DNA of 64,000 bases from Physcia stellaris (lineage: Eukaryota > Ascomycota > Lecanoromycetes > Caliciales > Physciaceae), in assembly GCA_018902385.1 (NCBI GenBank), contig JABSSW010000033.1, positions 62,001 to 126,000 of the forward strand, written 5' to 3'. Each line of letters starts with the position of its first letter. Position 1 is the first letter of the stretch. The translations under genes were made by a program, and so were the position numbers. A model generated the notes under the pieces. That model worked only from the letters and a program-made list of their open reading frames with translations. It did not search any database and was not told the DNA's origin. Positions 2,561-64,000 of the stretch are shown piece by piece.

Positions 2561-2770
2561 CCCAAATGGGTAAGGTACTTCGGGGCATACGCCGCCCCCG
2601 GTATCTTGCCGGAAGCATCGGTCAGATGGAAGGTTTTGTGGCGGACTTTGGATGAATTGGATCAAGTGACTTGGGTATCGTTCTGGACGAGAGGGCCGGG
2701 GATTGAGCTAATGCAAGGGCGCTTTGTCCATGCATTGAAAAAGGTAAAGAAGAAGAATGGAAGAGTTTGA
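2561..2770 (+). pseudogene. Open coding-like segment, possible gene relic
   Basis: A 69-codon open stretch without a start codon begins after a TAG (2558-2560) and ends at TGA (2768-2770). Its composition is protein-like, for example RWKVLWRTLDELDQVTW and later GPGIELMQGRFVHA. The final part faintly resembles the GRFV.AN.D.DEL tail of some fungal short-chain dehydrogenases, but the match is too weak to name it. Position 2560 could be a 3' splice site, yet no upstream exon could be linked. It may be a leftover 3' exon or a chance frame. Confidence 0.2.
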
Positions 2771-3715
2771 TTTATGGGTGGAGAGTTGTGGTTTGAAGGC
2801 GGTGGATTAGCCTTTTATTGTGTAGAAGCATGAATTGTGTATAAGAATTAGTCACGTAGTTTGCGCCTAGGCACTACCTCGCTAGCGCTTTGACCCCTAC
2901 ACAATGGGTGGAGAGTGGAAGGGGTGGGGGAACCTTCTAAGCAGGGCCCGGATGAAAGCATCCCATCCGATAAGGTTTTACCTCGCCACTTTCCAAATCA
3001 TCGTGCTCGAGAGCATTACCCTGGTGTAAGAGAACGGGATGCAGACCTTTTCATTATTCAGATCACCAATATTGAGACGAATGTAGTATGCAAGCTGGCC
3101 ACATCTGTATAGCGTTATATATATTAAGTGCCATGCTGTAGGAAACAGTAAACTGGTGCGTGCGGAAAGCTCATCGCCCCATTCTAGTATCCCAATCTCG
3201 AGTGCGCCCCGAATTCCAAAACCATCCAACATTCACTCTTCCTGATCGCGTCTGAAATGAAGGAAACCCGAACGGGTGCTGATTGTGATAGCTTCGGCGG
3301 AGAGAGAGAAAAGGCAAGGATACGTATCTGGGGACACGGGGAGAGCTCAAAGGAATTCCTCAAATGATTGGCGATAATGTGGCCTCATCGGAAAGTTTAT
3401 CAATTATGAGGGGAGGTGGGGAGTTGTATGGAGACCGGACCCTGGAATGATATCTGGAATTGTGGCTCGAAGGACGAGTGGTGGTGGCCGTCTAAGTGTG
3501 TTTTCCTGAAATCGGCTTAGAGAAGGCAGGCAGACATACCTACTCCGGGAGAGTCTGAAGACTTCCCCAATCAAATGGCAATAGTCTGATTCCATGGTGG
3601 CGGTCGTCCACCTGGTGGAGAACCAGCCTGGCTGGCGCTCTGCTCCTAAAACGTTACATAAAAGTTACGTGTTCAGCAGCAACTGATTCTTGAGATACCA
3701 GTACAGATCCGTCGT
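2771..3715. other. Intergenic, nothing recognised
   Basis: No conserved coding segment or repeat was identified. The short frames on both strands lack domain signatures. The right part probably holds the 3' flank of the minus-strand F-box gene that ends near 3716-3789. Confidence 0.45.
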
Positions 3716-9809: not shown

Positions 9810-12264
9810 CTAGCCTTCAGCCTCGATCTCATAGCTGTTCGATTTGTGTTTGGGCTATTTGTGGTCTATCGTCAGCGCTTCCGTACTCATGTAATTGCCA
9901 AACTCTCAAAAAAATGGATTAGGAAGACATACCGCGAATTTGAAGTCTCTATGTGCGGGTCCAAGGAACATTTCGCTGCAGTGTATCAGCTTGCAGAACA
10001 CAACATTTCCATGTCTATCTCACCTGATTTTGATCCAATCTTTGTAATCATCGCTTCCCAACAGGGTTTCCAGATCATTCCTACCTCTCCAAGCGGGGGG
10101 CCGATCCTGTAAGCTTGGGGGAAGATGCTCTAGAATACCAACGGGAATGTAGCGATATGCGAAGCTCAACCATTCGAGCAAGAAGCGTCTCGTCTGGCCA
10201 ACACCCATTTCGTCAGAACCCCAAGTCTCAAGACCATACCGGACATACTGCTCAACCATGGAAAGCCGCTCGCTAGCAGATTTGTCAAGATATTGACCCT
10301 TTTCGATCTCTTCGAATATCCAAGGCTTGACCAACGCGCCTCGAGCCACCATCACCGAGTCAACTTGAGCTTCCTGAATATGGCGTTCATAGTCGGTGTG
10401 CGAATAGCAATCGCCATTACCGATAAAGTAGACTTTACCGTTAGCTGGCTGTTTGCTTTCCTCAGCTTCGTGGATTGTATCTGAAAGCTCGTTGGCTCTG
10501 TTGTTGTATCTCTGGATCAGAGCGGCACAGTCCGATATGTACTTCCAGTCCGCATTCCTGGTGTACCGTTGCTGTCGACTTCTGCCGTGCAAAGTGATCG
10601 CTGCCACACCACAAGGGCCAAGACCGCTTTCATAGGCGCCTTGACCTCCATACACAAGGCGGTCGATCAAATTCTCCGCCGTAGGTTTATTATCTTTGGT
10701 GCCCATACGAATCTTGACTGTAATGGGGACTTCATTGGAGACGGCATTCATACCACGCAAGATACTCTCGAGCTTTGATGAACGATCAAGAAGTGCAGAA
10801 CCTGCGCCAGCACGGTAGACGAGATCAATCGGACATCCACAGTTCAAGTCAATCACACGGAGTTGCGGGCATAGCTGCGTAAGTAGTTCGGTAGTTCTGA
10901 GGGCTTGCCAGGCTTTATTTGCAGCTATTTGAGCACCAAATCTTGAGTCTTTAGTATTATCATAATCCTTGACGGTAGTACCTGACGCTTGGTAGGAAGG
11001 AGCCGCAGCTTCTGATTCGTGTGCTCGCATCAGAGCCCACTCAGACTTTTGACCTTGAATGAGAGGTAGACTCATTGCCATCTCTGAGTAAGTTATCTGG
11101 GCTCCAAAGCCAATGCAAAGCCGACGGAATGGCATGTTACCTTGTGTAGTAAGGGGAGCTAGAACTGGTGTTTCCGGTCCAAAGTATAATTTCCGCTTCT
11201 CGGACGGTAAAAATGGAGGCTCAATATAGCGGGCTCTGTTGTCTTCCCTTACAGCGTGCTCATCTTTCTCGTTAGCCAGCATGCTAGCATCATCGTCTCG
11301 CTGTGTTTTCTGCAAATTCTGTTCTTGTCCTTCCTGGTTCGATGTCTCAAGCCATTTGATGTAATCATCAGCTTTTGGGGTTTTCATTTTCCGTTTCATT
11401 AGATCTGCTTTTGCTTGGGTGGAGATATCGTTGAGTATTCCAACCTCAGTAGACGCAGGATCTTCAGAGTGATTTGAATTTGTATCAATCTTCTCCACCA
11501 GTACCAGCTGGGCCCTTCCGTCATCGGTAGCTTCTTCGACCATGTGTGACTTCACAAAGCGACACTTCCAGCCCATGTCACACTTTCCCTTCAGATTCCA
11601 GATCGGACAGACGCCACCAAAGGTGGTCAGATCTTCCCTCTTCCAGTCTTTGAGATACTTACGGAGATTGTGCTCGAACTTACAATCATCCCCGAATCTA
11701 CATTCTTTGGGCGAGAATTCGGAACTGTTGGCACGACTTTGGCAGAGACCTACTTCATCTCTGGAGGATCCGAAATGGCGGTTAGTGTTTTGACCTTTGG
11801 ACTTTTGTTTCTTCTTGCTCCGCTTGTCTCGAGAATCAGGCACATGAGCAGCCCCTTCAGCGGCATCATCATCAGCTGCGGAGGTGCCTTTATCGGCTCT
11901 TCTACTGGGTTGACTGACGAGGAATCTACATCGTAGTGAGCACAGAGCTTCATTTGATTAGCGGTGTTCATGCTGACTCTGCTTTGATGGGTGCCACTCC
12001 TTTTTGCCTCTGCCTGGGAGCGGGTGTGGAGTTTGTGTCAGAGGCAAGATCCAGCTTCAACCGCTTTGGACTGGATCCTTCGGCAGTCTCTGGTGCCGCA
12101 TGTCGCTCATACTTCTCTGCTTTTGTAATAGCCGAGTCCTCGGGAGCCACATCCTTCTGTGGATGAACTTGCTGCTCTACGTCCGTTGATGAAAGTCCAG
12201 GTTGCAAGGTCGTCGTGGGCTCCAGTGGATTAGGTTCCATCTTTGTATCTGCACGAGCGGGCAT
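9810..12264 (-). CDS. DUS3: tRNA-dihydrouridine(47) synthase [NAD(P)(+)]-like, DUS3
   Basis: Four exons (12264-11978, 11925-10024, 9975-9933, 9854-9810) join in phase to 758 residues. The ATG sits in a GCCACCATG context. The N-terminal extension holds two CCCH zinc fingers (about residues 157-181 and 202-223; [11 protein letters not shown] and [13 protein letters not shown]). The TIM-barrel domain carries the catalytic loop [20 protein letters not shown] (active-site Cys about residue 460) and the FMN/phosphate segments [12 protein letters not shown] and [15 protein letters not shown]. The enzyme reduces uridine 47 in the tRNA variable loop with NAD(P)H and FMN. The two tiny 3' exons supply the conserved ending, SEMFLGP...DFKFA and then [14 protein letters not shown]. 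That match is strong support for the structure. The first intron uses a GTCAGC donor. The gene is divergent from the SFP1-like gene. Confidence 0.95.
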
Positions 12265-30863: not shown

Positions 30864-33398
30864 TCAATCCATGGACCAAACTCCAACATCCGAAGCCTCT
30901 GTGCGCCATGACGACGAGGATGATGCCGATGATACTGATGACGAAGATGTATGATCGTGGCCTGAGGGTTCTTCCGATACATCATCCGCACCAGTGACAA
31001 GACTTCCTTTCCCTTCGGAAAGCCACTGTTGAACCGTCTCAGCCGCTACCTCCAGTAAACGTGTGGTAGACGCCGTGGTAGTACCAATATTTCGCCTCCC
31101 CGCGAGTGTGGAGAAGACAAAGCCAACTACCATGGCCACGTTGTGTTCTCCATGTGACATGTAACCCTTTGTAAACTCTGGCCCTGTAACTTTCTCCTCC
31201 GCGGTCTGGAGACGCAGTAGCAGCTCGCGGCACAGGTTATGTATGGCGAAGTAATTGAACTCGAGATCTGGTATCTCAGCAGCTATGGTTGCAGCAAGCC
31301 GGTAGAGTAATGGCTGCCTCGTCTTTACTGCCGAAGTTTGGACGTCTTTGGTCTTCGCGTTGGTTTGACTTTTATTACTCTTTTGGATCCAGCCTTCTAC
31401 GACATCAGTCGAGACAGGCTCTCGATCGTATAACGAGGGACCGATCCGAGTAGTGGCCAATGTGGACGTCATTCCCATGAACTTCATCAAAGGCTTATTC
31501 TCTTTGTTGACTTTCAATTTCTTGTCGCGTTTGTTGGGTGCCCAGTTGGTTACCGACGAGCCTAATGTTAGACAGAAGTTGTTGAAGTAGCCCTCGAACG
31601 AAGATGGAGTATCGCCGATAAAGAACGTCGAGTCGCCTTGCATCTTCCGCAATGTCTCCAGGTCTCTCCAAGCAAGGTTCAAAGAGTTCTCCTGTTTCAG
31701 TGCGTGATATAGCTGTACCGTACACATAACAGTGCCTGGCACTGCGGCATACGCTGCTCCTTGTTGGTGGAATAGAGTCCTCATGTACTGAACCCATAGT
31801 CCACAATGCAGAAAATGGCGACGGAGGAACGTGTAGTCTTTATAGGGCCTACCCATGGCGCTTCGCAAGAGAGCAATGGGGTCCATCCCGCTGTCCCACA
31901 CCTCCAAATTTTTGAGTATATTCCGTCGTTCTGGGCATGAGTTCGGCAAGTTGTGGACAGATTGCTTGACATTGCGCATGACACGCTGCATGTCAGTCCA
32001 TCCTTTGCCAACCTGCAGTACCTCTAGTCAGAAAATTGCTGGAACTTGGGGAAGACATCATGTTATTACCTTAACAATGCTTAAGACGTCGAGATAGACC
32101 TGGGCGGCAAATGAGAACCATATTGGAACATCTGGCACCTCTTTCCGATCTCTCTTTGCCGTCTTTAGCGTCATCATCATGCCATAGGTCAGCTGGTCCT
32201 CGACCGGACTCGGTTTCGGAAGGTTGGCTGTGAGAGGGAGATCTGAGAGCATCTCCAAAAGAGCGGGTTTCAACCGTGCATACTTCTGGCGACCTGAACC
32301 CGACGTTGTCCCTGAATTTTCATTGTACCAGCCATAGAGGCCATTGTAAGAAGCAATCTCGCCGAGAGGATTCGCACGCACATGTGCAATGATGAGAATA
32401 AGGGGATTGATCAAGAGTGCGTCTGCAGTGTCAAAAGCGGCGAAGTTGTAATCGTCTGTGGGCCTCTGCTTGGCTTCGGCATCAACGCCCAAAACCGCAG
32501 AGACAGCATGGAAGTAGTCAACGTGAAACATCGATGAGCCACCATTCTCTTGCACAAGCGGCTTGATTTCATCTTCAAAGCTCCGTGCCAGCTCGATGGC
32601 CGTATTCGTAGCGACAGATACTGCCGCAATGTCCATGTCCCCCGCCTCGTATCTCGTCCAAAGCTCGGCGATTTCAGTCCTCATTCGAGAAAGGTCGTCG
32701 ATCAGTGTTGTCATGGCAAACAGAGCCTCAAAAAGCGAGTTCTTCTCCACTTCAACCGTGTACTCCGTTTCGTTTCGACTGGAAACCTCTACATTTGGGG
32801 CGGCTTCAAAGGCTGCAGATGGCTCGTAGACGTCCAAGATCTCGAAAAGACTTGAGATACCTTTCCCATCTCTATGAGTACCGACCTGGGAGATTGTATC
32901 CTTGAGAGCTGACACATTGAATGCTCCCTCGTTCTTCAGCGGCTGCAGCACTTTACGAACTTTTTCAAGAACGCTGACGAAGTACGAGTGGCGGGCATCT
33001 GACTTTTGGTCTGAACGTCGGCCCGCATCCTCCAACTTTTCAGAAAAGCTTTTGCGCACCCATATGACTCTTTCCAGAGCCACGGAAAAGTAGCTGGGTA
33101 TTTGGATACCTGCGGAGTCGGTTACACTGACAATGTGCTCGGCCAAAGGTACAAAGTCTGCTATAGCCAAAACGTACTTCGGCTTTGATGGCTCAGAGGG
33201 CACCGTATTCGGTACTTGCCCTGCTTTGGCTTGCTTTCGTTCTTTGCCTTTCAGTCTCGCTGACGGTTTAGTTGTAGCAGATGCTCCAACCTTGCCAGAG
33301 TAGCCAAAAGCTTTGGCTGTGGTAGCTAGCCATGACGCCACGTCATTGGTGTCACTCTTGTACTGCTGATATATACTTCTAAGAGATTCAGAAGTCAT
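30864..33398 (-). CDS. DUF6604-type fungal protein
   Basis: Two exons (33398-32070 and 32012-30864) join in phase 0 across a 57-bp intron (AAG/GTAATA donor, CTGCAG acceptor), giving 825 residues. The N-terminus (IYQQYKSDTNDVASWLATTA) followed by a basic linker and a long helical domain matches the layout of the fungal DUF6604 family. Those proteins start with a YK.DT..F..WL-like motif and are otherwise uncharacterised. The C-terminal half is also helical and ends in a Ser-rich tail (SSSSVSSASSSSSWRTE). No catalytic motif is evident. The family is often expanded in filamentous ascomycetes; its function is unknown to me. Confidence 0.8.
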
Positions 33399-49234: not shown

Positions 49235-51216
49235 ATTGGCTAATTGGGCCCGATCGATATTTTGTTCTTGGAAATGGTGTTTGTCCTCTGTCTGTGGAAC
49301 TCTGTTGAAATAATTGATCGATGATACAGAGGGTGTTGACATTACTTTATGATATTTTGGCTATCGGGACAATCGTTTCATACCATCACACTAAGATTAG
49401 CCGAAGAAGGCTGTCGATCAAAATCATGTTTCATACCTCGCTTGTTGATGAAGGAGCCGAGGTAGCATCAGCGGCCAGTCTTGAACGAGACTGACCCAGG
49501 CTGGGCATGCAGGTACCAAGACCTGGATCCATTGACCAAGGCCCGTAGCCTCACGTAGGTGATCGTTGATCACCAGTCCGCCCGTTGAATGCCCACACGT
49601 GGTCGTGGGGTACCGACACGCTGTCAGTTTGCGAGGGTGCTTTTCAGAAGATCGAAGTCCCTTTGGCATCAGAATCGCAGCGTCACCCACATGTGACCTC
49701 CAAAACGCGACTGAAGAGTTTGAGTTATTCTGATTAACTTTCGCCGGAGCGGAAGATCTAGCCGCAAGCCAGGCGATTCAACAAGTAAATCGAAAGGAAA
49801 TGCATGCCGACCGGATGTAAAGGCATCAGCACTTTGCGCGTAAGGACATGATATACTACGAGTTCAGTATCAAACGATCGAGATCGCAAGAAAGAAAATA
49901 GGGGAAGAGTAGCATCATAGGCGAATTGTAGTAGCTAAGGGTGTGTGGGGGCCATCGTTACTTTGACCCTTTAATATCCACTACGGAGGCTTCAATAACC
50001 TTGGCGTTCAGCCTTGGGGGCTATAACTCGATGACGTGTTGGCTGCTCACCGCCTGACGTATGGATCATACGATGCTCTGGCTCCATCAAGTACTGAGAA
50101 TAAACCACCACACTTGTCTCAGTAATTGACAAGGATGGCAAGAATGTACGTGGAGTAACTAGTTGCTTAAATCAGCTGACGAAAGTTTTTCATCCATTAT
50201 GGCAACTTTGCCCTGTTCTCTGGAGTCATGGAGATGAAATAAGTGAAATGTAGAATCAATGCCGAATTGTACGAGGATCTCGGAAGAATTTGATCCGCAG
50301 ATGGAAAGCCCATAACAGACAACTCTGCGCTCCAAGACCAAAGGATAGGAATCTGTTCAAAGATTAACTGAAGGGTTAGAGGAGCTGTTGCCGGAAATTG
50401 GGACGAGTTTAACAGACCAGTAGTCCAGAGATCGAGAAGCGCAATCCAGCGAGCGACAGAAAACATATATATCTGATTTCTGGTGGAAAGGATGTCGCAG
50501 ATACTCTTTTAGGTAGTTTAAGTGCGTGATAAAGGTAGTTCGGTGCTAGATTCTAAATGTAAATAGTTTCAGAGAGTGTATCAAACTCATGGATTGGTAG
50601 ATTGCACAAAGATAATCGCCCACGCTAACATTGGCAAACTCTTCACCAATAGCTGTTCTTGCCATCGAACTCAGAATTCTTTTCATTAATTCGCCGAAGA
50701 TGCATTCCTCGTATGCAGCTAACACGAGAAGATAGCCAAACAAGAAAAAGGCGATATCAATAATTTTGTTTGTTGTCGCCGGCTTTCTGAAAAATCCACG
50801 ACTTTTAGCATCGGAGAAGTTCAGACTGGCTGTGAGAAGTAAATACGAATGCCGATGTTTGCTTACCCGGTCAACATTGAGTGTCAAAAGGAGTGATCAA
50901 GGGTTAAATCAAATAGTCGAATTGAGAGAATTTCCGAACTGCAAATTTTCCCAGGTTGCGTTCATGTCGTCGCTTGTCCGAGACCAGTGCGACTGCTTGA
51001 AAGCTCTCAATTAAGTTGTCTTGGATCCTTGAGAATATTGCCATTGTGACCATTGTTACATTCTGTGGTAACACAAAGGAGTCTCACATGTGATTTCTTG
51101 GCGCTTGGCAAAAACCCACCTGACATTTCTGGGACTCAGTGCTTCTCATTGTCCCTTACCCCAATTGTCTGATGTTGTGGCTCGTCTCGTTCTCCCAACT
51201 CCAAAGGAAGTAAGGG
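49235..51216. other. Intergenic, no supported gene
   Basis: About 2 kb containing only short frames (for example 50466-50197 and 50887-50546 on -) with no domain. It is the shared upstream region of the secreted protein (-) and the kinase-like gene (+). Confidence 0.45.
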
Positions 51217-52333
51217 ATGGTACGCACGCATGACCCCGAGCCCGTCTGGGACAAGGAGGTCGATCTTCCGAGAAAATGGATCCAATCTGTCGATAGCAAT
51301 GTTGCTACGAGTAAGTAATTCTTCACTTCTTCAATAGCCGTGAGATCTGATATCGAAAGAACTGCCGGAGGGGTCGCAAACCACAGGTATATTTCCGTAC
51401 GGATTTAGCTACTGGACCAGGACTGCCAGAATCGAAACAAAGCAAGCTGATGGGACTCAATTGTGCTTTTTCCTCAAGGTGTTACCATATATCTTTGAAC
51501 AGATGTTGTGCTAAGACGTGAAGGGCAGGTCACTCAGCATGAGACTGGAAAGGCCATGGTCTCTGGCGAGTTTGCGTCCATGACCACCCTCCACGATGTA
51601 CTTCCTTATCTAACTCCGATGCCTATCGCCTGGGGTACCTATGCTGCTGATTCGAACGTCCACTTCTTCCTGTGCGAGTTCGTCGAGATGGGTGAGGAGC
51701 TTCCCGATGTCCAACTTTTGGCTGCATCCCTTGCAGAACTGCATCGGAAAGGCGAATCTCCCAATGGCAAGTATGGCTTCCACGTTCAAACCTTGCAAGG
51801 AACACTTCCTCAGTACACCGAATGGACAGATTCGTGGGAGGAGTTCTTTGCACGTTCCCTCAAACTTGTCATGGAGAATGAAGAGAGGTCACAGGGTCCC
51901 GATGAGGAAGTCAAGCAGCTCTATGTAGAGACACTCACTAAGCTTGTTCCTCGACTACTTCGTCCACTCGAGACCGGAGGCAGGCGTATCCAACCTCGTC
52001 TCGTCCACGGTGATATATGGGATGGGAATGTATCGCCAAACATAGTCACGGGTAAACCAGTCATCTACGACGCGACATGCATATATGCGCATAACGAGAG
52101 TAAGTTACTCGCCAGAGTTACATGGGTTTATTCTGACCGCTACAGTTGAGCTTGCACCCTTAAGGGCGGCTAGGCATCGAATGGGAAAGTCCTACGTGGA
52201 GGCCTACTTCCAGTATTTCCCGGCTGCTGATCCAAAGGAAGACCAAGACGATAGGAACGCTCTTTATTGCCTGCAAGTCGCACATGCTCACATGAGTATC
52301 CATAGAGGAGAATCATCACTGACGCACCTTTAG
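51217..52333 (+). CDS. Fructosamine/ketosamine-3-kinase-like protein
   Basis: Exons 51217-51310, 51360-51478, 51529-52099 and 52146-52333 keep phase, giving 323 residues. The third exon must start at 51529. The nearer AG at 51501-51502 leads straight to a stop, whereas GGGCAG at 51523-51528 keeps the frame. Family features: LPEGSQTTGIFPYGFSYWTR near the N-terminus, FFLKVTQHETGKAMVSGEFA around the nucleotide-binding Glu, and the catalytic loop HGDIWDGN (H231, D233, N238). The metal-binding aspartate follows in VIYDATCIYAHNE (D252), and then a conserved tail with RHRMGKSYVEAY and DDRNALYCLQ. Relatives phosphorylate sugar-lysine adducts or small sugars (APH/FN3K fold). Catalytic residues are intact. 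The C-terminus stops about 30 residues earlier than is usual, so a late exon or truncation is possible. Confidence 0.85.
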
Positions 52334-53263
52334 TCGATGGGACCTGAATTGCTCATCCTTGTACCCCGGTAATCTTCGATACAGGAAGATGTAAGTAGAC
52401 ATTCTCTTGTTGGTCAGCAAAGTGATTCTGATAAGTCGATAGGTGCGTGGATGTTATGAAAACGCTTCTCGCCAAGCATGCCGAAGGTTACGATGGCTGG
52501 GTGAAGAGGAGAGGCGAGCATCCAGCATCGAATGCCAATGCCACAGAAGTGTACAACAGTTACCGAAGCCATGTCGATGCGGGAGAGTCTTCCCTTTAGG
52601 TTGTAAAGTGCTCTAATGCCTTGGGCTTGCATCGCACGGTCTGATTGTGTGGGATATCCATTAAATTTATTGTCATCATCGTTCATTCATGTGGTATATA
52701 CTCTCATGAATCGCCTTCCCCGAAGTCAAGACCATCTTAAGCGCTGGCTGTGGGCGTTCATTACACAGCTCGGTGGGTGCTGTCCTGTCAATCCTTTAGC
52801 ATAAACAGAGTATGAGAATGAATGGGATCAAAATCTGTCGAGGAATGCTGACATAAGACGATGACGCCATTAGCGGAGATCTACATCACGTGATCATCGG
52901 GTGGCTTATGCTCCGTCGCATACTCCCGTCTCAATCGCGTGAATTAAAGCAATAACATTTGATCGCGTGGAATATGGAGTGGCAGATGTGAGATTCGAGT
53001 CGGCTCTTCCTACGCTGGCGATCATACTCCATGAAGTGGAATATGGATTCCCAATGTACTCACCAGGAGAGAGGCCTGTGGACTGCCCACCAATCAGCAG
53101 GCGGTCCACCAGTTTCACCTGCATGTCACCAAGTTCTGCAGGTTGACAGGTGTGACAAGCCGATGAACAGTCTGAGTGTCGTTGTTCTGGGCGGACAAAA
53201 TGTCGATCCTTCGATGCTTTCTTAGAATACCCATCCATCGCCCTCTCCTTCGATATTCTCATC
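52334..53263. other. Intergenic
   Basis: 3' flank of the kinase-like gene and promoter of the MFS gene. No other gene supported. Confidence 0.45.
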
Positions 53264-54918
53264 ATGGCCACAGCAGGCAATCCGAGTCTCCAAACTCCGA
53301 CGACCGAAAATGCTGCTAAACCTCCTGAAACCGCATCAGCACCCTCAGTCCCCGAAGGAGCAACGACAGCAGATCTCACGAGTTCGCCAGAGGCAGCTAT
53401 TCCATATACGACGTTCACTAAACGGCAGAAGCGCCAACTCACCGGAATTCTTATACTCACCATGCTCGCCTCCCCATTGACGGCAACGATCTACCTTCCT
53501 CTTCTACCGTTGCTTGCAGCAAAGTTCAATGTTTCAACTCAGTCCATCAATCTAACGATAACAATCTACGTAATATTCCAAGCCGTGTCTCCTTTGCTCT
53601 TCGCTACTGCCTCGGACAGCTTCGGTCGCCGTCCAATCTATCTCATCACCTACGCCATCTACACCGTCGCCAGCATCGGCCTGGCTGTGAACCAACACAG
53701 TTACGCTGCGCTGTTAATCCTGAGAGCACTACAAAGCTTGGGTGCATCTGCCGTCCTCGCGATTGCATTTGGTGTAGTAGCTGACGTCTGTACGCCGGCC
53801 GAAAGAGGATCCATGTTAGGCCCAACCCAAGGGGCAGCCAACCTGGCTGTATGTATAGGACCGATCCTAGGTGGCTGGGTTGCTCTGGGCAGTGGGGGTT
53901 TGCATGGGTCTTCTGGGCATTGGTCATCTTTGGGGCCACCGTGCTGCTTTGCGTAGGGTTTGCGTTGCCGGAGACGGCGAGAAATGTCGTTGGAAATGGT
54001 GGCTTGGAAGCTACAGGCTGGCACAAAACTTGGACATCCATACTTCTGTCTCAGCGGAGAGGGAAAGCCATAGTACGCCAAGTAGAGAGTGGCGAAAAGG
54101 ATGTCGATTACGAAGGCGCTCGGAGCCCTCGTCAAACAGGAACGACTGCAAGGAGTATGAAAGACTTGCTCCGCTTGGCGAATCCCCTCGCGGCGCTTCG
54201 GATCATCTTTTGGAAAGACACAGCACTTGTGTTGTGGATGGCAGCTTCTCCATACGCGGTATGGTACTGTGTACAAGCGTCCATTCCACCTATCTATCAA
54301 GACATCTACGGCTTCGACGAGCTACAAATAGGTCTTTCATTTCTGACTGGCGGCTTCGGGACCGTCCTGGGTGGGTATCTGAATGGAAAACTGATGGACT
54401 ATAACTACAAGGTCACCGCACGACAGATAGGCCATACCATCGACCGAGTATCCGGCGACAATCTCGACAAATTCCCCATTGAAAGAGCAAGAGCCAGAGG
54501 CTCATGGTCCCTGCTGTTAATCTATATAGGCACTTTAGCCGGCTATGGCTGGTCAATCCACGCTCGCGCCCACGAAAGCGTGCCCCTGATTCTGCAATTC
54601 ATACTTGCTGCGCTCTGTACGGCGTTTCAGCAGACCTTCAATGCTCTTCTCGTAGATGTGTTCCCTGCGAGTCCGAGCACAGCCGCAGCGTCAAGTAATA
54701 TCACTCGTTGCCTCTTGTCCGCGCTGGGTTTGGCGACGCTGCAGCCGCTGGTGAACGCCATGGGTAGACACTGGTTCTTCACAATGCTGGCAGTTCTAAG
54801 TGGTGGTGGGGGCTTGCTTGCGAATTGGGTGATGAACGCCTACGGCATGCAATGGAGACTGGAGAGGATCGGCAAGATGAAGGCTAAAGCAGGTGCTGAT
54901 GGAGCTGTTGATCTCTGA
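53264..54918 (+). CDS. MFS drug/metabolite transporter (DHA1-like) with 1-nt frameshift
   Basis: From ATG 53264 the frame encodes a Ser/Thr/Pro-rich cytosolic N-terminus and six membrane spans. It includes the DHA1-type motifs TATIYLPLLPLLAAKFNVST and ATASDSFGRRPIYL (motif A), LRALQSLGASAVLAI (motif B) and GPTQGAANLAVCIGPILGGW (motif C). It then breaks at GGGGGTTT (53894-53901). The sense frame resumes one base off with FAWVFWALVIFGATVLLCVG and FALPETARN, then runs through the second six-helix half to TGA 54916-54918. Adding one base makes 552 codons, the usual size. Intact relatives export drugs or metabolites at the plasma membrane by proton antiport. The lesion is in helix 6. It is either a one-base assembly error in a homopolymer or a fresh loss of function. 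Confidence 0.88.
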
Positions 54919-55762
54919 AGTGACTTGGATCTGCTGGCTTAGCGTAGTGTAGATAAAAGGCAATGGGTAAATATGAAAGTAAGTTGTCATTCACCAATTG
55001 CTGACGTTGAAAACCTAGGCTGATAGTGTCACTCAAAGCTAGACGGCGATGATACAGTATATTTAGAGAAAATGTTTTGATGTAAGATCAGTGCAGTCAA
55101 TGCTTGCGTGATACAGGATTCCTTGTATCAGCTTGATGTATTGCTAGCGAGTGCCGATCTTTGTACCCCATGATCAGATACCAGCCCAAGTCCTCAAAAG
55201 AAGATAAAGATACCTAATAACAAGGCGTGAAATAGGTTCAAGAATTGATCGCGGATATTGGTGAAAATACCTCTAAAGAGCAGCTCCCTACGATTGAAAA
55301 AGAACCCCCAGAAAAAGCCTCATAGAAAGCTCGTCAATAAATAATCTCCAATTAATTACCAGGGCGTGATACATCAGAGACACTGGGGATGGTATCTGAA
55401 TCGTACCCAAACCAACTATCTTCAACTAACGAGCTTGAATATACCAAGAACAGCATTGCAACCAAGAACCCAATCCTAAATCATCATCGCCCACCCAAAC
55501 CCAAAACCCTTCAACATAAATGCTGACAATACCTCCAAAGACAATAAAGTCCGCCGTTCCTTCTTTTCATTCCTCCGCAAGAAACCACACAGATTATAAC
55601 AGCGTTCCCCGCCCAATCCCTCTCCAGTAAAGCCCATACCGCTCTCTACCTAAGTTCCAGGACACACAGAAGACCAGCCCCTGACTAATATCTGCGCTTC
55701 AAGGAGTGGATCTTACATTACCGAGCTCATCTTCGAATTTTATACATAGCACTCTGTAAAAG
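54919..55762. other. Intergenic
   Basis: AT-rich 3' flank of the MFS gene. Nothing recognised. Confidence 0.4.
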
Positions 55763-55999
55763 CTACTTCTTGCAAGATCCAGTACCCGAACACCCCTGCA
55801 CGGGGGCCAAATCCGCTTCAATAGCCAGCTGGTCCTTTGTGAATGTGCGTGCCCCGAGAAGGACTGGTTTTGTCTTCGAGTCCGTCTGAGGTAAGTAATC
55901 GATTGCTTTGTCGCGAATCAAACGAGGATGGATTGGGATATACACCGGCTCGATCCAGAAGAGGAGCAACGCATCTGTTTTGGCTAACCATATACAATC
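55763..55999 (-). CDS. Possible 3' exon of an unidentified gene
   Basis: 79 codons open from a plausible 3' splice site (TTCTAG before 55999) to TAG 55763-55765. The sequence reads DCIWLAKTDALLLFWIEPVY, then HPRLIRDKAIDYLPQTD and a Cys-containing end (QGCSGTGSCKK). Composition is protein-like. Upstream, 56337-56003 on the same strand is also open from an ATG but in a different relation to the junction, and no domain is recognised. It could be a real short gene or a relic. Confidence 0.25.
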   Translation of the reverse strand, partial: DCIWLAKTDALLLFWIEPVYIPIHPRLIRDKAIDYLPQTDSKTKPVLLGARTFTKDQLAIEADLAPVQGCSGTGSCKK

Positions 56000-56612
56000 C
56001 TAGAAGATGGAATCGCTCGAACAGACTGCATAAGTTCATAGAGGGATGATTCGACACATAGGCAATGAGTCAGCGATTTCGTCGGCTCAAATATGGGTAA
56101 GGTCTCGGACTCTGCACGTACAAGCTTGACGCGTAATCTACGTCTCTTTGATGCTTCCTCGAAGTTCGGTAAGATTTCACTTTCGGTATTGCATGACTCG
56201 GGTATTTTGTGATGGTATGGATTTGAAGAAGATATCCATTGGAATCGCGTCTCCGTTCGAGGATTGGAAGTAGCGCGGAGGAACTCAGCGGTTAGGAGCT
56301 TTTGGGGATGGTGGGAATTGCTGATTTTTCGCATCATGGTCGTGCCAGGCTGAGGGAAAGGAGAAAGACGGGCGGATAGCTGTGCGGGATGTCATAATTG
56401 CGAGTGGTGATGGGGAGAAGTAATGGACTATGCCATTTGCATAATGACGTGCCTGCTTTCTCGGTCCTTAATCTGATACAAACGCAATCAACGTTTCAGA
56501 ACTGCACTCGCAATGATGTCGACCTTTTGGATTCATTATGGCCAAGTCGATCTGAGCCATGACTATGGAGCCTACCTTCTGGTGACGGCCTTCTGTAGCC
56601 AGAAATCGAATC
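56000..56612. other. Intergenic / uncertain
   Basis: Contains the open minus-strand stretch mentioned for 55763-55999 and the 3' flank of the CFEM gene. No further support for coding. Confidence 0.35.
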
Positions 56613-57728
56613 CTACAACCACAAAGCCATCAAAAGCCCCACAACCCAAGCACCCATCCAGCCCCGCGCAGGAACAGCCCCCGCTCCACCCGCAAACGCC
56701 GACGGAGTCGGAGTCGACAATGACGCCGATACAGATGCATTCGATCCATTACCCGTGCCGCCGATCGGATTGCAAAGCTCTATCGCGATGAACTGGAGGA
56801 CTGGATGTGGGGTCTCGTCAGCTTTTCTACCTACGCAACAGCTAACTTCCACACGATGCGACGGGCTTTGGCTCTATGCGCGATGGGCACGGAAGGGGTT
56901 TCATACCTTGATAGTCCATCGCGCTACACGTTGTCGTAAAGCACGGGCTGATAGCCTCATTGAAGGCGCTATTCAGGCACGCGCATGTTCTGTTGGAGAG
57001 CGAGCCACAGCCCGAAGAGGGGAAGTATTGCGCGAGACATTCTCTCTGTAGGTGGATGTTATTTATCCTTCTGGCTCAAGCTGACAGAAAGAGGGGAGGA
57101 AACGACAGGGAGGCGGAATATTGTCTGGCCTTAGGCGACTACGTACCCCACAAAGCGGGTAAGTCTGGGAATCGGTAGGGTCGATGGTGGCCACGGCGGA
57201 AGCAGCAAAGGATGTCCTGGACGCAATTGCAGAGGTGACTGAAGGCCCGAGTTGAGCGGAGGCGCTGTATAAGGGCCCGCAGAGCTGTCCTGCAAGGACT
57301 TGTGTCCCTTTAGAACAAACCCGTCAGCAAGTGGTTTATTGACTTGAAAGGACGCTCTCCCATATGATTGGCTCATAGGGACCTGACGGCCCGCTTACTG
57401 TTATAGTCCTCCCCACTGCAAGCAATTTTCTCACAGCTGGCAGTCGCGCTCCGAAAACCAGCGCCACAAAGGCACTCCTGTCGTCCCATCGCATGGTGCG
57501 TTCACTGCTGCAACGGTCTCGTTGGAGCATATTTGCTGGCAAATCAAGTACTTAGCCCTCTCTCCGCCAGTGAGTTGGGAGCATGCAGAGACCTACTGCA
57601 CAAAATGGATACGTCAAAATGTTAGCAGGGTCGCCGAGAGCCGTCGCAGTGGGAGAGGGAACCGGCGTTTGGGCTCTGACAGCAGCGCTGCTCAGAAAGA
57701 GCAGGGAGGGTATATAGAAGAGCTGCAT
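56613..57728 (-). CDS. GPI-anchored protein with two CFEM domains; 1-nt frame lesion
   Basis: Exons 57728-57597, 57535-57399, 57307-57147, 57045-56907 and 56830-56613 (261 residues when the lesion is bridged). MQLFYIPSLLFLSSAAVRA is a signal peptide. CFEM domain 1 spans exons 1-3: PFCAQICSNETVAAVNAPC, then ECLCGAGFRSATASCEKIAC, then GQLCG. CFEM domain 2 spans exons 3-5: YPLCGRECLAQYFPSSGCG, TCACLNSAFNEAISPC, TTCSAMDY and IELCNP. A Ser/Gly-rich stretch and a hydrophobic C-terminus (GWMGAWVVGLLMALWL) form a GPI signal. CFEM proteins act at the fungal surface, for example in haem/iron capture or host interaction. In exon 2 the frame must skip one base between NAPCDGTT and ECLCG (around 57473-57476) to keep the Cys pattern. 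All later junctions then agree in phase. Confidence 0.8.
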
Positions 57729-59146
57729 GTTGGAACTAAGGATAAGCAGAAATGGTAGAATGATGATCGAAGGTCGAGCAAGGTAGGAACTGGAGTCATG
57801 ACTTGTCAAGGCCGGATCTTATAGGGACCATGATGGTCAAATTGACGCTGGTCATAGCTCCATCCTGATGTAATGTGGAGACAGCATTGTGCATGATCCA
57901 AGATCCAGATGTTCGTCGCGTATGCGGAATGCCGTTGATCAGTGGACCACCAATGCGTGAAGTCCAATCATTCTTCGGCGTTTGTTCGGACGCATTCGTA
58001 GCCCCGGGATCGACATTCAGTGCTGCAGGAACGAAAAAGCATGATGCATCCCCAATACGAGAGAGACATCGATGAAGTCAATGCTCATTGCTTTGACAAT
58101 CCGATAAATTAATACCATAACAATTCGATGGCTAATTCGACATGGAAATTCAAATAAATAGGCATAGCCCTTGGTGTAACCACCATGAAGGCGAAGCGGC
58201 TCAAGGCAAGAATACTACATATCTAGGGAGTCAAGTTGGAAAAGGCGCTCAGGCTCGCCCATCAGTGTTCCTCCCGTGGACGTACCAGCATAAGCAGACA
58301 ATGGCTTCATGTTGCTTGGACTTCCTATTGTGAATATCACTGGTAAATCCAATTTATGAGGTGAATCAGCAAAGCATTCTGGATGCTTTTTGAGATGGCG
58401 TATTCGAAATCTTCGTACATTGTTCCCTTTCCTAAGGCATATCGCTGTGAGTGGCTAACATCCTACATGTAGATTTCGTTTCAGCTGATGTAATCTTTAG
58501 AGCTCCATTTATCCACACCAAGGAAACCTTGGATTTCATCGCCGCGAATCCTTGATTTTTTCAGTACCTATCGGACAACATGAAATTTAGCTTAAGACTT
58601 ATCAAACATTCATCGATGATCGGCCAATTGGAGATACTACCATCCCTCCTCTGGCATACAGTACACATCGTTATCGCTATTTGTACTGCTGCTGACGAAA
58701 CTGCTTCGACGGCTCTTTATACGATCACATTGCTTCCATGCGTGTTACACCATCGTCATGCAACTAGTCTTGATCATAGCCGATATTATGGGCGGGTATC
58801 GATCTGGCCCCATTCATCTGTCTTTCTCGATCCCCAAAACGGCCAACTCGCATACCAATGGATTGTCATATTCATGCAGAGCGACTGATGAGGATTAGAA
58901 TCATGGAAAGCTCGACCGATGCGGGTTTTTCAAGTTCCGAGAAGTCCATGACATAGAAGAAGGCGTGTCCCAGTAGCTGCGTGACATCTCTTTGCAGGGT
59001 GAGCGCGGGGATCTCCTCTTAAGCTTTGCTGCACCCTTCATGTTCGCCAGATGAACCGACATATGTTGCTTAGGGTTCCTCCGAATACGAGTCTCGATCG
59101 AGTTTAGCACGACCCAGCCGAAAAAACACAATTTATGCTACAAACC
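57729..59146. other. Intergenic up to the AT-rich boundary
   Basis: Normal base composition, with no supported gene. The last CC dinucleotides occur at 59144-59146, immediately before composition changes abruptly. Confidence 0.45.
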
Positions 59147-59894
59147 CAATTTTTGAAATAATTCAACAACGAAACGTGATATTGACTTGATTAACGCGTC
59201 ATTCGAATCGTCGAATTTTTGCGCATCGATCAATGAACAATTAATAATGATAAAAAAAATAACATGATCGTTATTAAATCAAACGAACGAAAATGTTCAC
59301 AAACAAAAAACAATGTTGTTGAAAAACATCAAAAAATGTCGAAAATTCGTTCGAACAAAAAAAAAATCATCATCGAAAATCATCGAAAATTGATTTACAA
59401 TCGTCGTAACATATTTTGAAAATACACAATTTGCATTCGTACAAAAAAACATGATGAACGCAATAAATAAAATAATTGTTCAATTCAACAAAAAACACGC
59501 GAAAATGAAAAAAAAACAATGTTATGATTCGTCATGAAATTACAAAAATAATCATTTTTTTCAAATTTTTTTTTATTTTTACGATCAAAACGAATTTTCG
59601 CAATTGAACAATCGTCGTTGCGATTTTTTTAACGTTCAAAATCATCGCAAACAAAATGTAATGAAACGAAATCGATCAAGCGAACGCTAAAACGTTGTGA
59701 ATTTAGTTGTCGCATTTCGTGTTTATATATTCGAAGTTTCACGAACTTTTTCTTGTTTCTTTAGCAATTAGTTCTACTATGTGTCTAACATTTATCATAG
59801 CAATTAATATTATTATTCGCACATTTTAATCACGCAATGTTTACACTTTTACAGTTTTAATTGTTTTACATCAAGAATTGTTCGATTAGCAAGA

Positions 59895-61358
59895 ATGTTC
59901 AGTTCAGCAAATGCGTTTCGTCGTCGCGAGATTCGTTCGCAAATTCGTGATCGTGCGATCGTATCGATTGCATTACAATCAAACATCATTTCATCAAGCA
60001 ATCTTTTTATGTTTTTTTTTTCTATCGATCGAATTACTGAATTGTTTGATAATGTTCAGTTCGAAAATTCTGATGAAAACAATGATTTTGTCGATTTTGA
60101 TGATGTCGACGCTTCAACTAAACACATTTCAATTTTCGAATTTTTGATTTCAAATGTTGATCAATTTTTCAATTCAACACTTGTTACGCATTTTAGTCAG
60201 AGTGAAACACAACGAAAAGATGATTTTGTTTCGTTGTCGTCAAATAGCGATGTCGCTGTGTTTGCTGCTGTCGACTCAAGCGTGATTCTTAAGCAAATGA
60301 AGATGCGTATCAAAATGCTGAAAGCTGAGTCAAAGCTCAATGACTCTAAAATATCCCTGATCAAGACGAAGACGAAGCGTGATCGAAATCGCCGTCGTCG
60401 TCGCAACAACGATGATCAATATGAAAATTCGTTTTCGCATATCAAGAAACGAATCGCACGATCAAAAATTTCAAACACGCAAAAATGTGAAAATTGAAAC
60501 AATTTGAAAAATTGATTGCGTGATTGCGAAAAATATATCGTTTTCGATTTTGTTAATTTTCAAACAAAAAAAATGAAAACAAATTGATCGACGTCGCTTT
60601 TGATGACGACAAAAAAAAATCAATGACGTAATTATGTTGATGCTCAATTTGAAAAACAAACATGAAAACAATATAAAAATTATTTGTTGACGTTGTTTAG
60701 CAATTCGATGATTCGTGTCATGAACACGATTATTATCATTGAAAATGTCAAACAATTGTTTCGACAAAACATTGTTGCGTTCAATCAATATTTAATTAAA
60801 TTGTGAAACAAATTGAAACGTCACGTCTCGAACGAAAAACGACAAAAAAAATTGTTGATTAAAATTCATGTTTTCATTCGCATTAAATGTGTAAAAATGC
60901 GAAATCATGAAATCGATTTTTATTTCAAATTAATCGTCAATTTGTTGATTGCGAAACAATTGTTCGTCGACGATAATATTTTAAATAAATCGTCGAACAA
61001 TGTTACGAAAACAAAACAAAATAATGAAAATAATCAAAAAAATCACGAAAATGACAATGACGATGACAAAAATAAAAACAAAAAAATTTCGCGTAACAGA
61101 TTTGTTGAATTTGACAACGTTCAAAAAAACAATCAAAATCAATTTTCGAAATCGCAACAAAATCAGCAAAATGAAAAAAAAAATGAAAATCGAAATCAAA
61201 ATCAAAATTTCGCATTTTCAAAACTCGACGAACGTACGTGTTACGCATGTGACAAATCGAATCACATAACAAATGATTTTGCGTGCGAAAAATATGCGCA
61301 AATTCAAAAAAAACGCAATCAAAATCAAAATCAATCGTCGAAAAAAGAACGAGTCTGA
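59895..61358 (+). pseudogene. Ty3/gypsy gag remnant with zinc knuckle
   Basis: Two open stretches (59895-60497 and 60813-61358) carry Gag-like charged and Asn/Gln-rich sequence, ending in a CCHC-type knuckle at 61239-61286 (CYACDKSNHITNDFAC). The knuckle glycines are replaced by other residues, as expected if GGN codons lost G. The part between the two stretches has several stops. Nucleocapsid function (RNA binding) is lost. Confidence 0.65.
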
Positions 61359-61374
61359 TGCTTGTCGCTGAAAC

Positions 61375-61678
61375 ATTGAAAATAAATCTAAAACGAAATA
61401 AATTTCGTGTTTTGATAATCACGTTATCAATCAAAACATCTGTTACGCAAACAGACAATACAACAATTATTTGTTTGATTGATTCTGATGTCGAAACGAA
61501 TTTTATATCACAAATTCTTGTCAAACAAATGCAACTGTCTGAATTCAAGAAAATTGTTAAACAACATGTAAAGACTGTTGACGATCGTGTGATTCAAATG
61601 TATAAACATTATGAAAACGTGCATATCATAACACGAAATAATGAAAAACATGTAAAAAAACAAAATGTTGATTTCTGA
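61375..61678 (+). pseudogene. Retropepsin (aspartic protease) remnant
   Basis: Around 61475-61510 the sequence reads CLIDSDVETNFIS, matching the retropepsin active site LIDSGAT.NFIS. The glycine of the catalytic D-S-G triad is Asp (GAT at 61487-61489), which is a GG-to-GA change. Downstream LVKQMQL...HVKTVDDRVIQ fits the rest of the protease fold. Confidence 0.7.
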
Positions 61679-61967
61679 ACGATTGACATGCGTGAATACG
61701 ATATGATTTTTGAATATTCATGACTAAATGTTGTCGATTTTGACATTCGTTGACATGATCGTCGCTGACTATATCGTGATAATAATTATGAAAAATTCAA
61801 ACAAATTTCAATCAGTTTCTGTTTTGCAAAAAAATTCGTTGATTTAATTATGATTGTCATTGCGAATCGCGATCGTGTTTATGTCGCAATATCATATCAA
61901 ATGTTTTTTTTTAACATAGAATTATCAATATCGAAAACGAAATGTTGCTCGTTGTGATGCGTTACAA

Positions 61968-62780
61968 ATGAATCGCAACGATCACATTTTTGATGTTATC
62001 AAAAAAATAATCGAAATATTTTTCAAAACGTTGTCGAACAATTTGAATACGCATGATCAAATCGAGTATGTTATTGATTTGCAATCAAGCAAAAAATCGC
62101 GTTTTGAATTTATATACAATATGTCACACGACGAGCTTATTGTTATACGCAATTATCTCGAGAACGCGTTGACGAAAAATGAATTCGTTTTTTCAACGCA
62201 TTTGCGAAAACATCTGTATTGTTTGTCAAGAAATCAAATGACAATTTGCGTTTATGTGTGAATTATCGAAAACTCAATGAAATCACGATCAAAAACAATT
62301 ATTCATTGTCGTTGTTGTTTGAAACGTTAAAACGTTTCGCGAATGTTAAACATTTTATCAAAATAAACATCCGAAATGCGTATCATAAAATTCGTATTCG
62401 TCAAAAGATGAATGAAAAATTGCTTTTCGTACTCGCTATGAACAATACGAATATCAAATTATGTTTTTCGATTTTGCTAACGCTTTTGTTACTTTTCAAT
62501 TTTATGTTAATGAAACATTAAAATCATACATTGACGTTTTTGCGTGATGTATCTGAATGATGTGCTGATTTATTTTGAAAATGAACAACAGCATTGAAAA
62601 CATGTTCGTTTGATGTTTAAAACGTTGTTACGTTATCGCTTGTATGTCAAGTTGAAAAATGCGAATTCAACAAAAAAGAAATCAATTTTTTAAATTTCGT
62701 TGTTGAGCGCAATGATATTCAAATAAAACGTTCGCGTATAGACGCAATCGTCGATTGATTTGAATTCGAAAATGCGAAAA
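61968..62780 (+). pseudogene. Reverse transcriptase remnant with YLND in place of YLDD
   Basis: Recognisable RT blocks appear in more than one frame: LRLCVNYRKLNEITIKNNYS, then VKHFIKINIRNAYHKIRIR (family LDLRSAYHQIRI), then VMYLNDVLIYFEN. The catalytic YLDD box is YLND at 62550-62561. The D-to-N change (GAT to AAT after CTG) is again a G lost after G. Frame breaks occur near 62260 and 62520. Confidence 0.75.
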
Positions 62781-62785
62781 ATATC

Positions 62786-64000
62786 ATGATTTTTTTAGAT
62801 TTTGTTGAATTTTATAAGCGTTTTGTTAAAAGATTTTCGCAAATCGTAACATCATTTACGAATTTGACGCGTGATGCGAAAAAGAAAAAATCGCTTTTCA
62901 TTTGTTATGAAAAAAAAAAAAAAATTAAAATTGCGTTCAACGAATTCAAAATTAAATTCACGATTGTTTTTATTTTTACGCATTATGATTGAAAAGCGAA
63001 ACTACGCATGAAAATTGATGTTTTTGATCGCGAAACAGATAATATGTTCAATCAAAAAAACAAAAACGATCAATGACATCTCATTGCGTTTTTCAGTTAC
63101 AAATTCAAGAAAGCAAAAATTAATTGAAATACGCATGACAAAAAACTGTATGCGATAATGTTTGATTTCAAAAATTGAAAACATTATTTGCAAAATAACA
63201 AGCATTTCATTCGCGTTATTTTTGATCACAACAATTTTCGATATTTTATGACAATTAAAAAGCTCAATGCGAAACAGATTCGCTGAATTGAAAAATTAAT
63301 TGCGTTTGATTTCAATATAAAATATCGCAAAAACAAATTGAACTTTGCGAACGCGTCGTCGAAAAAATCTGATTTTATGAAATCGAACGATAACGACAAG
63401 AACAACGATAAATTCTTGTTTATTTTGCGAAACAAATTTCGCAATCAAAATTATCAGTTTGATTTGCAAAGCGATTAACGTGTGTTTGTTTCAATCAAAT
63501 TTGCAACATCGACAACGCGATTGCGTAACATTGTTACGACAAATATTCGAAATATTGTTTCGAATGAGAAAGTTCTCGATAGATGTGCTTGCAGAATTTT
63601 AAATATTGTCGCATTTCGATTCTTAGTTCATCAAATTATGAAATCGAAAAATTTTATTTGAAGTTGCGAAAATCAATGATTGCGTGATTATTCAAATTAC
63701 AACAAAAAACGCTTTTGTTGTTGAGAAACAATGACGTCAAAAATACGCAAACAAGCAAAACGAATTTTCGAAATGAAATGTTGAAAAAAATGAATTGTTT
63801 CGTCGTGATTTCGCAATTTATGTGTTTGAAAATTTCGCTACAAAACAAGAAATTTTTCGTATGAATCATGACGATTCAGATGTTGAACATTTTGCGCGAA
63901 CAAAAATCGAAAATGTTGTGCGACGTAAGTATTTTGATTTGACATGATTAAGAAAATAACAAATTATGTACGTATTTGTTCAGATTGTCAACGAATGCGA
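62786..64000 (+). pseudogene. RNase H and integrase zinc-finger remnant (partial)
   Basis: FLDFVEFYKRFVKRFSQIVT starts the connection/RNase H region. Further on, NTHDKKLYAIMFDFKN, DHNNFRYFMTIKKLNAKQIR and KYRKNKLNFANASS match the RNase H block up to the YRPGK.N.ADALSR motif. Trp in R-W-.-E is now TGA at 63284-63286. At the right edge NYVRICSDCQRMR (CxxC at 63977-63988) is the second half of the integrase HHCC finger. The integrase core is outside the window. Confidence 0.75.

Follow-up and report, generated by a model that had tools for sequence, protein, structure and literature searches.

Which process could have emptied a stretch of fungal DNA of the dinucleotide GG, and is it repeat-induced point mutation (RIP)? 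The question is raised by a 64,000-nucleotide stretch of Physcia stellaris (positions 62001–126000 of the forward strand of contig JABSSW010000033.1, here C33; hereafter the window), which ends in a block of hypermutated repeats at positions 59147–64000. The genome comprises 43.97 Mb in 147 contigs, and all data used here come from this one genome. The CpA target counts as the hallmark of RIP, and the indices that decide which fungi have it incorporate that target. Since the known fungal defence mostly hits CpA and the process described here hits CpC and CpT, the usual RIP tests miss it. Most of the repeat copies examined are heavily hypermutated yet RIP-negative, so repeat-directed mutation may be more widespread among fungi than has been estimated. 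We consider it likely that the block records a RIP-like process, in which repeats undergo C-to-T change on either strand where the C precedes a pyrimidine (CpY), through a putative RID-class enzyme acting in the sexual cycle. Given two RID-like genes, the clean change from CpA to CpY makes it possible to map the part of the enzyme that reads the neighbouring base, and strand tracts bear on its movement along DNA.

The block contains no GG, against about 109 expected from base composition under independence, and only four CC, at positions 60355, 60356, 60392 and 62371. A preliminary description, made from the letters alone, had noted the loss of GG (with about a hundred expected) and of CC, and the counts confirm this observation; the CC sites that it gave as the only ones (60355–60357 and 60392–60393) are present, but it overlooked 62371. 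Its account of scarce AG and CT and common CA, TG, CG, TC and GA also agrees with the dinucleotide odds, which show depletion of AG (0.28), CT (0.33) and TA (0.40) and values of 1.23 for CA, 1.51 for TG, 2.80 for CG, 1.36 for TC and 1.21 for GA. Positions 1–59146 are ordinary (odds GG 0.94, CC 0.95, CG 0.88; GC content 49%). The final CC run upstream of the block lies at 59145–59147, and the sharp transition described near 59147 falls within about 27 bp of a repeat edge: 33 of the 34 matches to this edge elsewhere in the genome begin at window 59113–59130, the remaining one starting inside the repeat. Depletion of GG and CC continues past the window end through C33:126001–133000, where a handful of either remain, and this downstream stretch (L064), to at least C33:133000, is a repeat too.

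Target rule in two Ty3-type families

The window's Ty3-type family is labelled gypsy-A here, and a second Ty3 family, gypsy-B, supplies copies with open frames. Two of these, L062 (C5:1165000–1168600) and L063 (C12:58800–62400), contain, in the fetched stretches, open frames of 1024 and 905 residues, respectively, have normal dinucleotides and are 95% identical over 3.6 kb. L062 served as the reference and the comparison of L063 with L062 as the control. The mutated copies were L065 (C95:24990–28574) and L066 (C51:4648–8241), both nearly whole, and a 2.07-kb part, L067; these are three of 44 listed matching pieces, a count that includes L062 and L063. The sites at which a C of L062 is read as T are as follows, in the order L065, L066, L067, sum of these three, control.

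CC: 368/475, 418/479, 262/276, 1048/1230, 18/490
CT: 189/433, 208/431, 185/255, 582/1119, 18/450
CA: 13/471, 16/465, 8/280, 37/1216, 14/474
CG: 12/463, 12/458, 4/248, 28/1169, 9/460

The control amounts to 2–4% per context. Because CC and CT are mutated and CA and CG stay at the control level, the rule in gypsy-B reads as C before a pyrimidine. C-to-T and G-to-A changes account for 582/630 substitutions in L065, 654/709 in L066 and 459/475 in L067. The base on the 5′ side matters little (pooled CT 0.43 after G and 0.52–0.58 otherwise; CC 0.83–0.89), and the one following the dinucleotide moderately (CCC 0.73 against 0.85–0.91 for other CC; from 0.44 for CTG to 0.62 for CTA).

In gypsy-A, the window copy was compared with the best 19 of 42 listed matching pieces besides itself (pieces of at least 1000 columns; 130 kb of alignments). 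C/T differences were found at 90/92 CC, 4591/5448 CT, 1670/16850 CA and 548/13614 CG sites; these are copy-to-copy differences, since the 19 fetched included no unmutated one. In the alignments of both Ty3-type families the target rule is thus shown as C-to-T before a pyrimidine, CpC first and CpT second. The preliminary description had proposed such a change on both strands, with CpC strongest and CpA spared, and had asked for alignment to an intact relative. The gypsy-B alignment bears this out and its interpretation is supported: neither outcome that it named as fatal, an intact copy itself lacking GG and CC or CpA as the main mutated context, was encountered, the open-frame copy having GG/CC odds of 0.99.

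Stop codons carry the same mark. At reverse-transcriptase (RVT_1) places, of which 150 of 527 candidates were scored, 250 TGA, 33 TAA and three TAG stops were counted, with ten places free of stops; in 23 DDE_3 matches, which belong to DNA transposons, there were 47 TGA, six TAA and two TAG, with two matches free of stops. The replacement of Trp codons by TGA that had been noted earlier was seen again in frames read by eye, with many TGA where Trp is expected. CpA-type RIP yields TAA and TAG stops and not TGA, according to one report (PMC3828140).

Restriction to repeats and strand tracts

Restriction to repeats was assessed in a sample consisting of the window and 20 evenly spaced 600-bp samples (three contigs). 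Positions 1–59119 of the window and 19 of the 20 samples are normal in composition, and the single odd sample, L060, is an island free of GG and CC that a genome search identified as a repeat. L060, L064 and a partly mutated stretch within L027 are all repeats. In the stretches tested, the sequence comparisons show a process restricted to repeats.

The L027 stretch (400–3700, on C48) is a copy from another repeat family, less mutated, that lies between two gypsy-A pieces. An initial reading of its graded loss as spread of mutation into single-copy DNA was dropped, the stretch having 105 matches in the genome. Within it, the 200 bp at 3000–3199 contain one CpY against 36 RpG (R, purine) and are strand-restricted.

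Strand-restricted tracts are shown in the alignment of one partly mutated copy, L065. At its positions 3000–3600, 50 of 56 CC are mutated on the C strand and three of 39 on the G strand; at 1200–1500 the counts are 18/20 and 0/9. Neighbouring G-strand sites of L065 agree with one another more than in any of 2000 shuffles. When L065 is compared with L066, the G strand has 72 CpY sites that are C in L065 but T in L066 and the C strand has 13, nearly all of the 72 lying at 1200–1600 and 2600–3600; the reverse counts (C in L066, T in L065) are 2 and 20. It looks as if the same process came back to L066 later, in a strand-restricted round.

The relation of the two copies suggests duplication of an already mutated copy, followed by a later one-strand round. 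Recombination with an unmutated copy is not expected to give the L065 tracts, in which the C strand is still mutated.

Candidate enzymes, rival explanations and known systems

A search of the genome with PF00145 returned three genes in four pieces, on C3, C5 and C6. The C3 gene is DIM-2-like: its open frame of 1118 residues matches DNA_methylase, DUF7893 and, weakly, BAH. The C5 gene (L035, C5:497000–502500) has an 816-residue open frame and a further exon and, like the C6 gene (L033, C6:789500–794500), matches DNA_methylase. Identity between C5 and C6 is 40% over a catalytic stretch of 174 residues and 34% over 149 N-terminal residues; between C5 and C3 it is 27%. C5 and C6 carry EQT or EET, which we take to be a mark of the RID class, where C3 has ENV. 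PMC2432034, searched for that mark, yielded nothing. Searches of solved structures returned only other cytosine methyltransferases (43 each). No BAH match was found in the C5 and C6 frames searched, and BAH is absent from the RID/Masc1 group according to a review (PMC7862722). The RID and Dim-2 homologues that the preliminary description had proposed to look for thus appear to be present as two RID-like genes and one DIM-2-like gene. A single PF04769 mating-type match was found, on C4.

In the mechanism that we favour, copies of an element would be recognized as homologous during the sexual cycle and a relative of the RID-class cytosine methyltransferases, one or both of the RID-like genes and possibly the DIM-2-like one, would then act on them. 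The enzyme would work along one strand of a tract, where methylation and deamination would change C to T. On the 3′ side of the target cytosine it would have come to read a pyrimidine in place of the usual adenine. Repeats would be inactivated in this way, CpC first and CpT second, with CpA and CpG at or near background. The process would thus be premeiotic and RID-driven.

Several points weigh against this reading. CpA differs at 10% in gypsy-A, against 4% for CpG and against 3% for CpA in gypsy-B, which may reflect weak CpA activity or older ordinary decay. L065 and L066 have 174 CT sites in common where 90 are expected, so that their mutations are mostly common by descent; L067 is nearly independent of both (84 shared sites against 78 expected, and 97 against 90), and the gypsy-B counts therefore amount to about two independent histories. 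L062 and L063 are unmutated though long and 95% identical, while the other Ty3 copies fetched are hypermutated; the process is therefore not always applied, or the last sexual cycle predates the arrival of both copies. Recent arrival or rare sex may be the reason. Their mutual C/T differences, counted both ways, lean slightly to CC and CT (CC 38/491, CT 38/440, CA 26/463, CG 23/467). Runs along a strand were not significant for the C strand of L065 (p 0.57 and 0.08), for L066 (p 0.07–0.48) or for L067 (p 0.65–1), as might be expected where most CC sites have already changed, and 200-bp asymmetry exceeded the 99th percentile of the background in none of 17 windows in either L065 or L066; in L027 it did so in one of 16. 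The RID-like label of C5 and C6 is provisional, and the enzyme step itself is inferred. The genome also contains three matches to OTT_1508_deam, a rival enzyme candidate (C38:375945, C34:399643 and C17:41218), in open frames of 436, 576 and 805 residues, respectively, without internal stops.

These last matches figure in two other accounts. CpA RIP could have been replaced in this lineage by a different repeat-directed, strand-processive mutator that recognizes a pyrimidine on the 3′ side, such as a deaminase of OTT_1508 type coupled to homology recognition; we regard this as unlikely, but if true, such a non-RID CpY mutator would escape surveys that use CpA-based indices. Also unlikely is an AID/APOBEC-fold deaminase (OTT_1508-type, for instance) that is targeted to repeats, where it would edit exposed single strands with no RID-class enzyme involved. 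The stop-free frames and the strand-restricted tracts of L065 would suit such an enzyme. AID/APOBEC enzymes are known for a preference set by the 5′ base, however, and here the 3′ neighbour decides and the 5′ base hardly matters; moreover, the genome profile search found no APOBEC_N match, DNA transposons carry the TGA mark and the OTT_1508-type genes are candidates by domain match. The presence of a DIM-2-like gene would allow CpY methylation in heterochromatin by a DIM-2-type enzyme, with spontaneous deamination then proceeding slowly over many generations and not in a burst. We hold this to be improbable, as 85% of CC (1048/1230) is lost with few changes other than transitions, and because scattered decay should not produce the 600-bp tract of L065, in which one strand is nearly all changed and the other nearly intact.

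Two further accounts can be given almost no weight. Comparison of saturated copies with one another can mislead, and CpT was dominant in alignments of known RIP fungi in a 2021 survey (PMC7882544) and, by RIPCAL, for Neurospora Tad1 (PMC2621366), so that classical CpA RIP might have run to saturation and left only secondary contexts differing between copies. The block is the opposite of what saturated CpA RIP leaves, with CpA/TpG abundant (odds 1.37) and TpA depleted (0.40), and CpA stands at the control level against an open copy, which refutes it. Nor is it credible that no mutation took place and that the block is natively unusual in composition or uses a code in which TGA means Trp, an idea to which the many TGA at expected Trp positions would lend themselves: the two LTRs (long terminal repeats) of the window's element differ by transitions only, TGA stops mark the DNA transposons as well, CpY sites vary between copies and the open relatives in gypsy-B have normal GG and CC.

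One-strand editing during reverse transcription was also rejected, on the dinucleotide odds, the copy alignments and the stops in DDE_3 matches, as was ultraviolet damage: TpCpA and TpCpG are at background (in L065, TCA 5/148 and TCG 4/145) though TpC is a dipyrimidine.

Measured against the usual marks of RIP, the RIP-like reading fares unevenly. C:G-to-T:A transitions on both strands of repeats are found in the gypsy-B alignments, mutation is confined to repeats in the sample, and C5 and C6 provide candidate RID-class genes. A preference for CpA is lacking both in gypsy-B, where the summed copies are at the control level, and in gypsy-A, where CA falls far below CT. The block scores 0.41 for TpA/ApT and 1.40 for (CpA+TpG)/(ApC+GpT), which makes it RIP-negative by thresholds of ≥0.89 and ≤1.03, respectively (PMC3828140), and by the usual index thresholds also given in PMC7882544. 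Because CpA preference and the standard indices fail, we file the process as RIP-like and not as shown RIP. Methylation induced premeiotically (MIP) is methylation without mutation; here the sequence itself has changed.

Neurospora crassa RIP, with RID and DIM-2, is similar in its C-to-T change on both strands, its restriction to repeats, the inactivation of elements and the presence of RID-like and DIM-2-like genes, but its order of targets is CpA > CpT > CpG > CpC (PMC5496416), whereas here CpC precedes CpT with CpA and CpG at the control level. RIP of Trichoderma reesei, an experimentally shown repeat-directed C-to-T process with a context unlike that of Neurospora, has CpA about equal to CpG and CpT above CpC (PMC5496416), almost the opposite of the order seen here. 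In Botrytis cinerea, Sclerotinia sclerotiorum and Magnaporthe oryzae CpT is among the targets, as here; it accompanies CpA there, and the accessible part of the study, which reports CpA, CpT and CpG signatures, gives none for CpC (Amselem 2015; PMC4352252), which leads here while CpA is at background. The repeat mutation of Microbotryum and rusts at CpG or TpCpG is likewise a C-to-T transposon bias with a non-CpA rule, but CpG is its target and no RID gene is reported (PMC4352252); here CpG is spared and RID-like genes exist. Monacrosporium haptotylum (Orbiliomycetes) shows no CpA decrease in repeats, for which its authors suggest another dinucleotide preference; its TpA/ApT of 1.12 is RIP-positive, its secreted-protein genes lean to TAA stops where the transposon stops here are mostly TGA, and no CpC rule is given in the available text (PMC3828140). 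CpA RIP with CpC-to-TpT double changes is described in Monilinia (PMC8959702), and two rid orthologues together with dim-2 and targets at CpA and CpT in Anisogramma (PMC10998396). A kingdom-wide k-mer study of 2025 describes a CpA preference shared by RIP-like defences (PMC12543289). In the accessible parts of the open-access literature we found no report of repeat mutation that takes CpC first and spares CpA, and the process described here would be a RIP-like variant with CpY in place of CpA as its target.

Nested repeats of the block

The preliminary description had treated the block as a single RIP-like unit. The hypermutation stands, but the unit is two nested repeats: judged by its sequence features, the block is a Ty3-type gypsy-A element nested in an older repeat, both hypermutated. 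The features are as follows.

59120..59656, forward strand: 5′ part of the older interspersed repeat, split by the Ty3-type insertion and resuming at about C33:129191 after the 3′ LTR, outside the window
59652..59656, no strand: target-site duplication CAAAA, with the second copy after the 3′ LTR (L013 8692–8696), outside the window
59657..59853, forward strand: 5′ LTR of 197 bp, TG...CA, with a 197-bp partner 3′ LTR at L013 8495–8691
59854..64000, forward strand: hypermutated internal region of gypsy-A, a Ty3-type LTR retrotransposon, extending to about C33:128993
59895..60497, forward strand: open frame of 200 amino acids, lying at the start of the internal region and without a match in Pfam
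60249..60398, no strand: patch keeping CC, CT, AG and GG, which make up 15.4% of its dinucleotides and 1.0% of those in the 19 copies
60813..61358, forward strand: open frame of 181 amino acids that ends in a degraded CxxC...H...C motif
62183..62518, forward strand: reverse-transcriptase fragment between stops, matching RVT_1 weakly (24.1 bits, under the Pfam cut-off of 29.6; E 3.3e-5)

Insertion of gypsy-A into the older repeat is indicated by the CAAAA duplication, by the LTR pair and by five uninterrupted copies of the older repeat (L037–L041), in all of which the flanks of the insertion point adjoin with an overlap of 4–5 bases. All nine matches of the older-repeat class stop at query 510, which is window 59656. 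Between the two LTRs there are 14 transitions and two one-base gaps but no transversions. The 19 other gypsy-A copies have aligned pieces that are 80–94% identical. The frames of the internal region, read by eye, are broken. The assignment of gypsy-A to Ty3 rests on the sub-cut-off RVT_1 fragment, on RVT_1 in related copies and on frames read by eye. The end of the 181-residue frame, for which no Pfam zinc-knuckle match was obtained, is presumably zinc-knuckle-like. The older repeat we take to be LINE-like (long interspersed nuclear element) only from a zinc-knuckle-like pattern beyond the insertion.

The 150-bp patch at 60249–60398 escaped most mutation in the window's gypsy-A copy only. Its interpretation as a protected position of the element was rejected, the same place being nearly fully mutated in other copies. 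A plasmid blastn search with 62000–63400, tRNA and Rfam scans of the window and a search for repeats of at least 30 bp within 50000–64000 gave no lead. Elsewhere in the window, domain matches indicate ordinary genes for a dihydrouridine synthase (DUS3-like; 10020–11840), a DUF6604 protein (32058–33395) and an MFS transporter (53851–54915).

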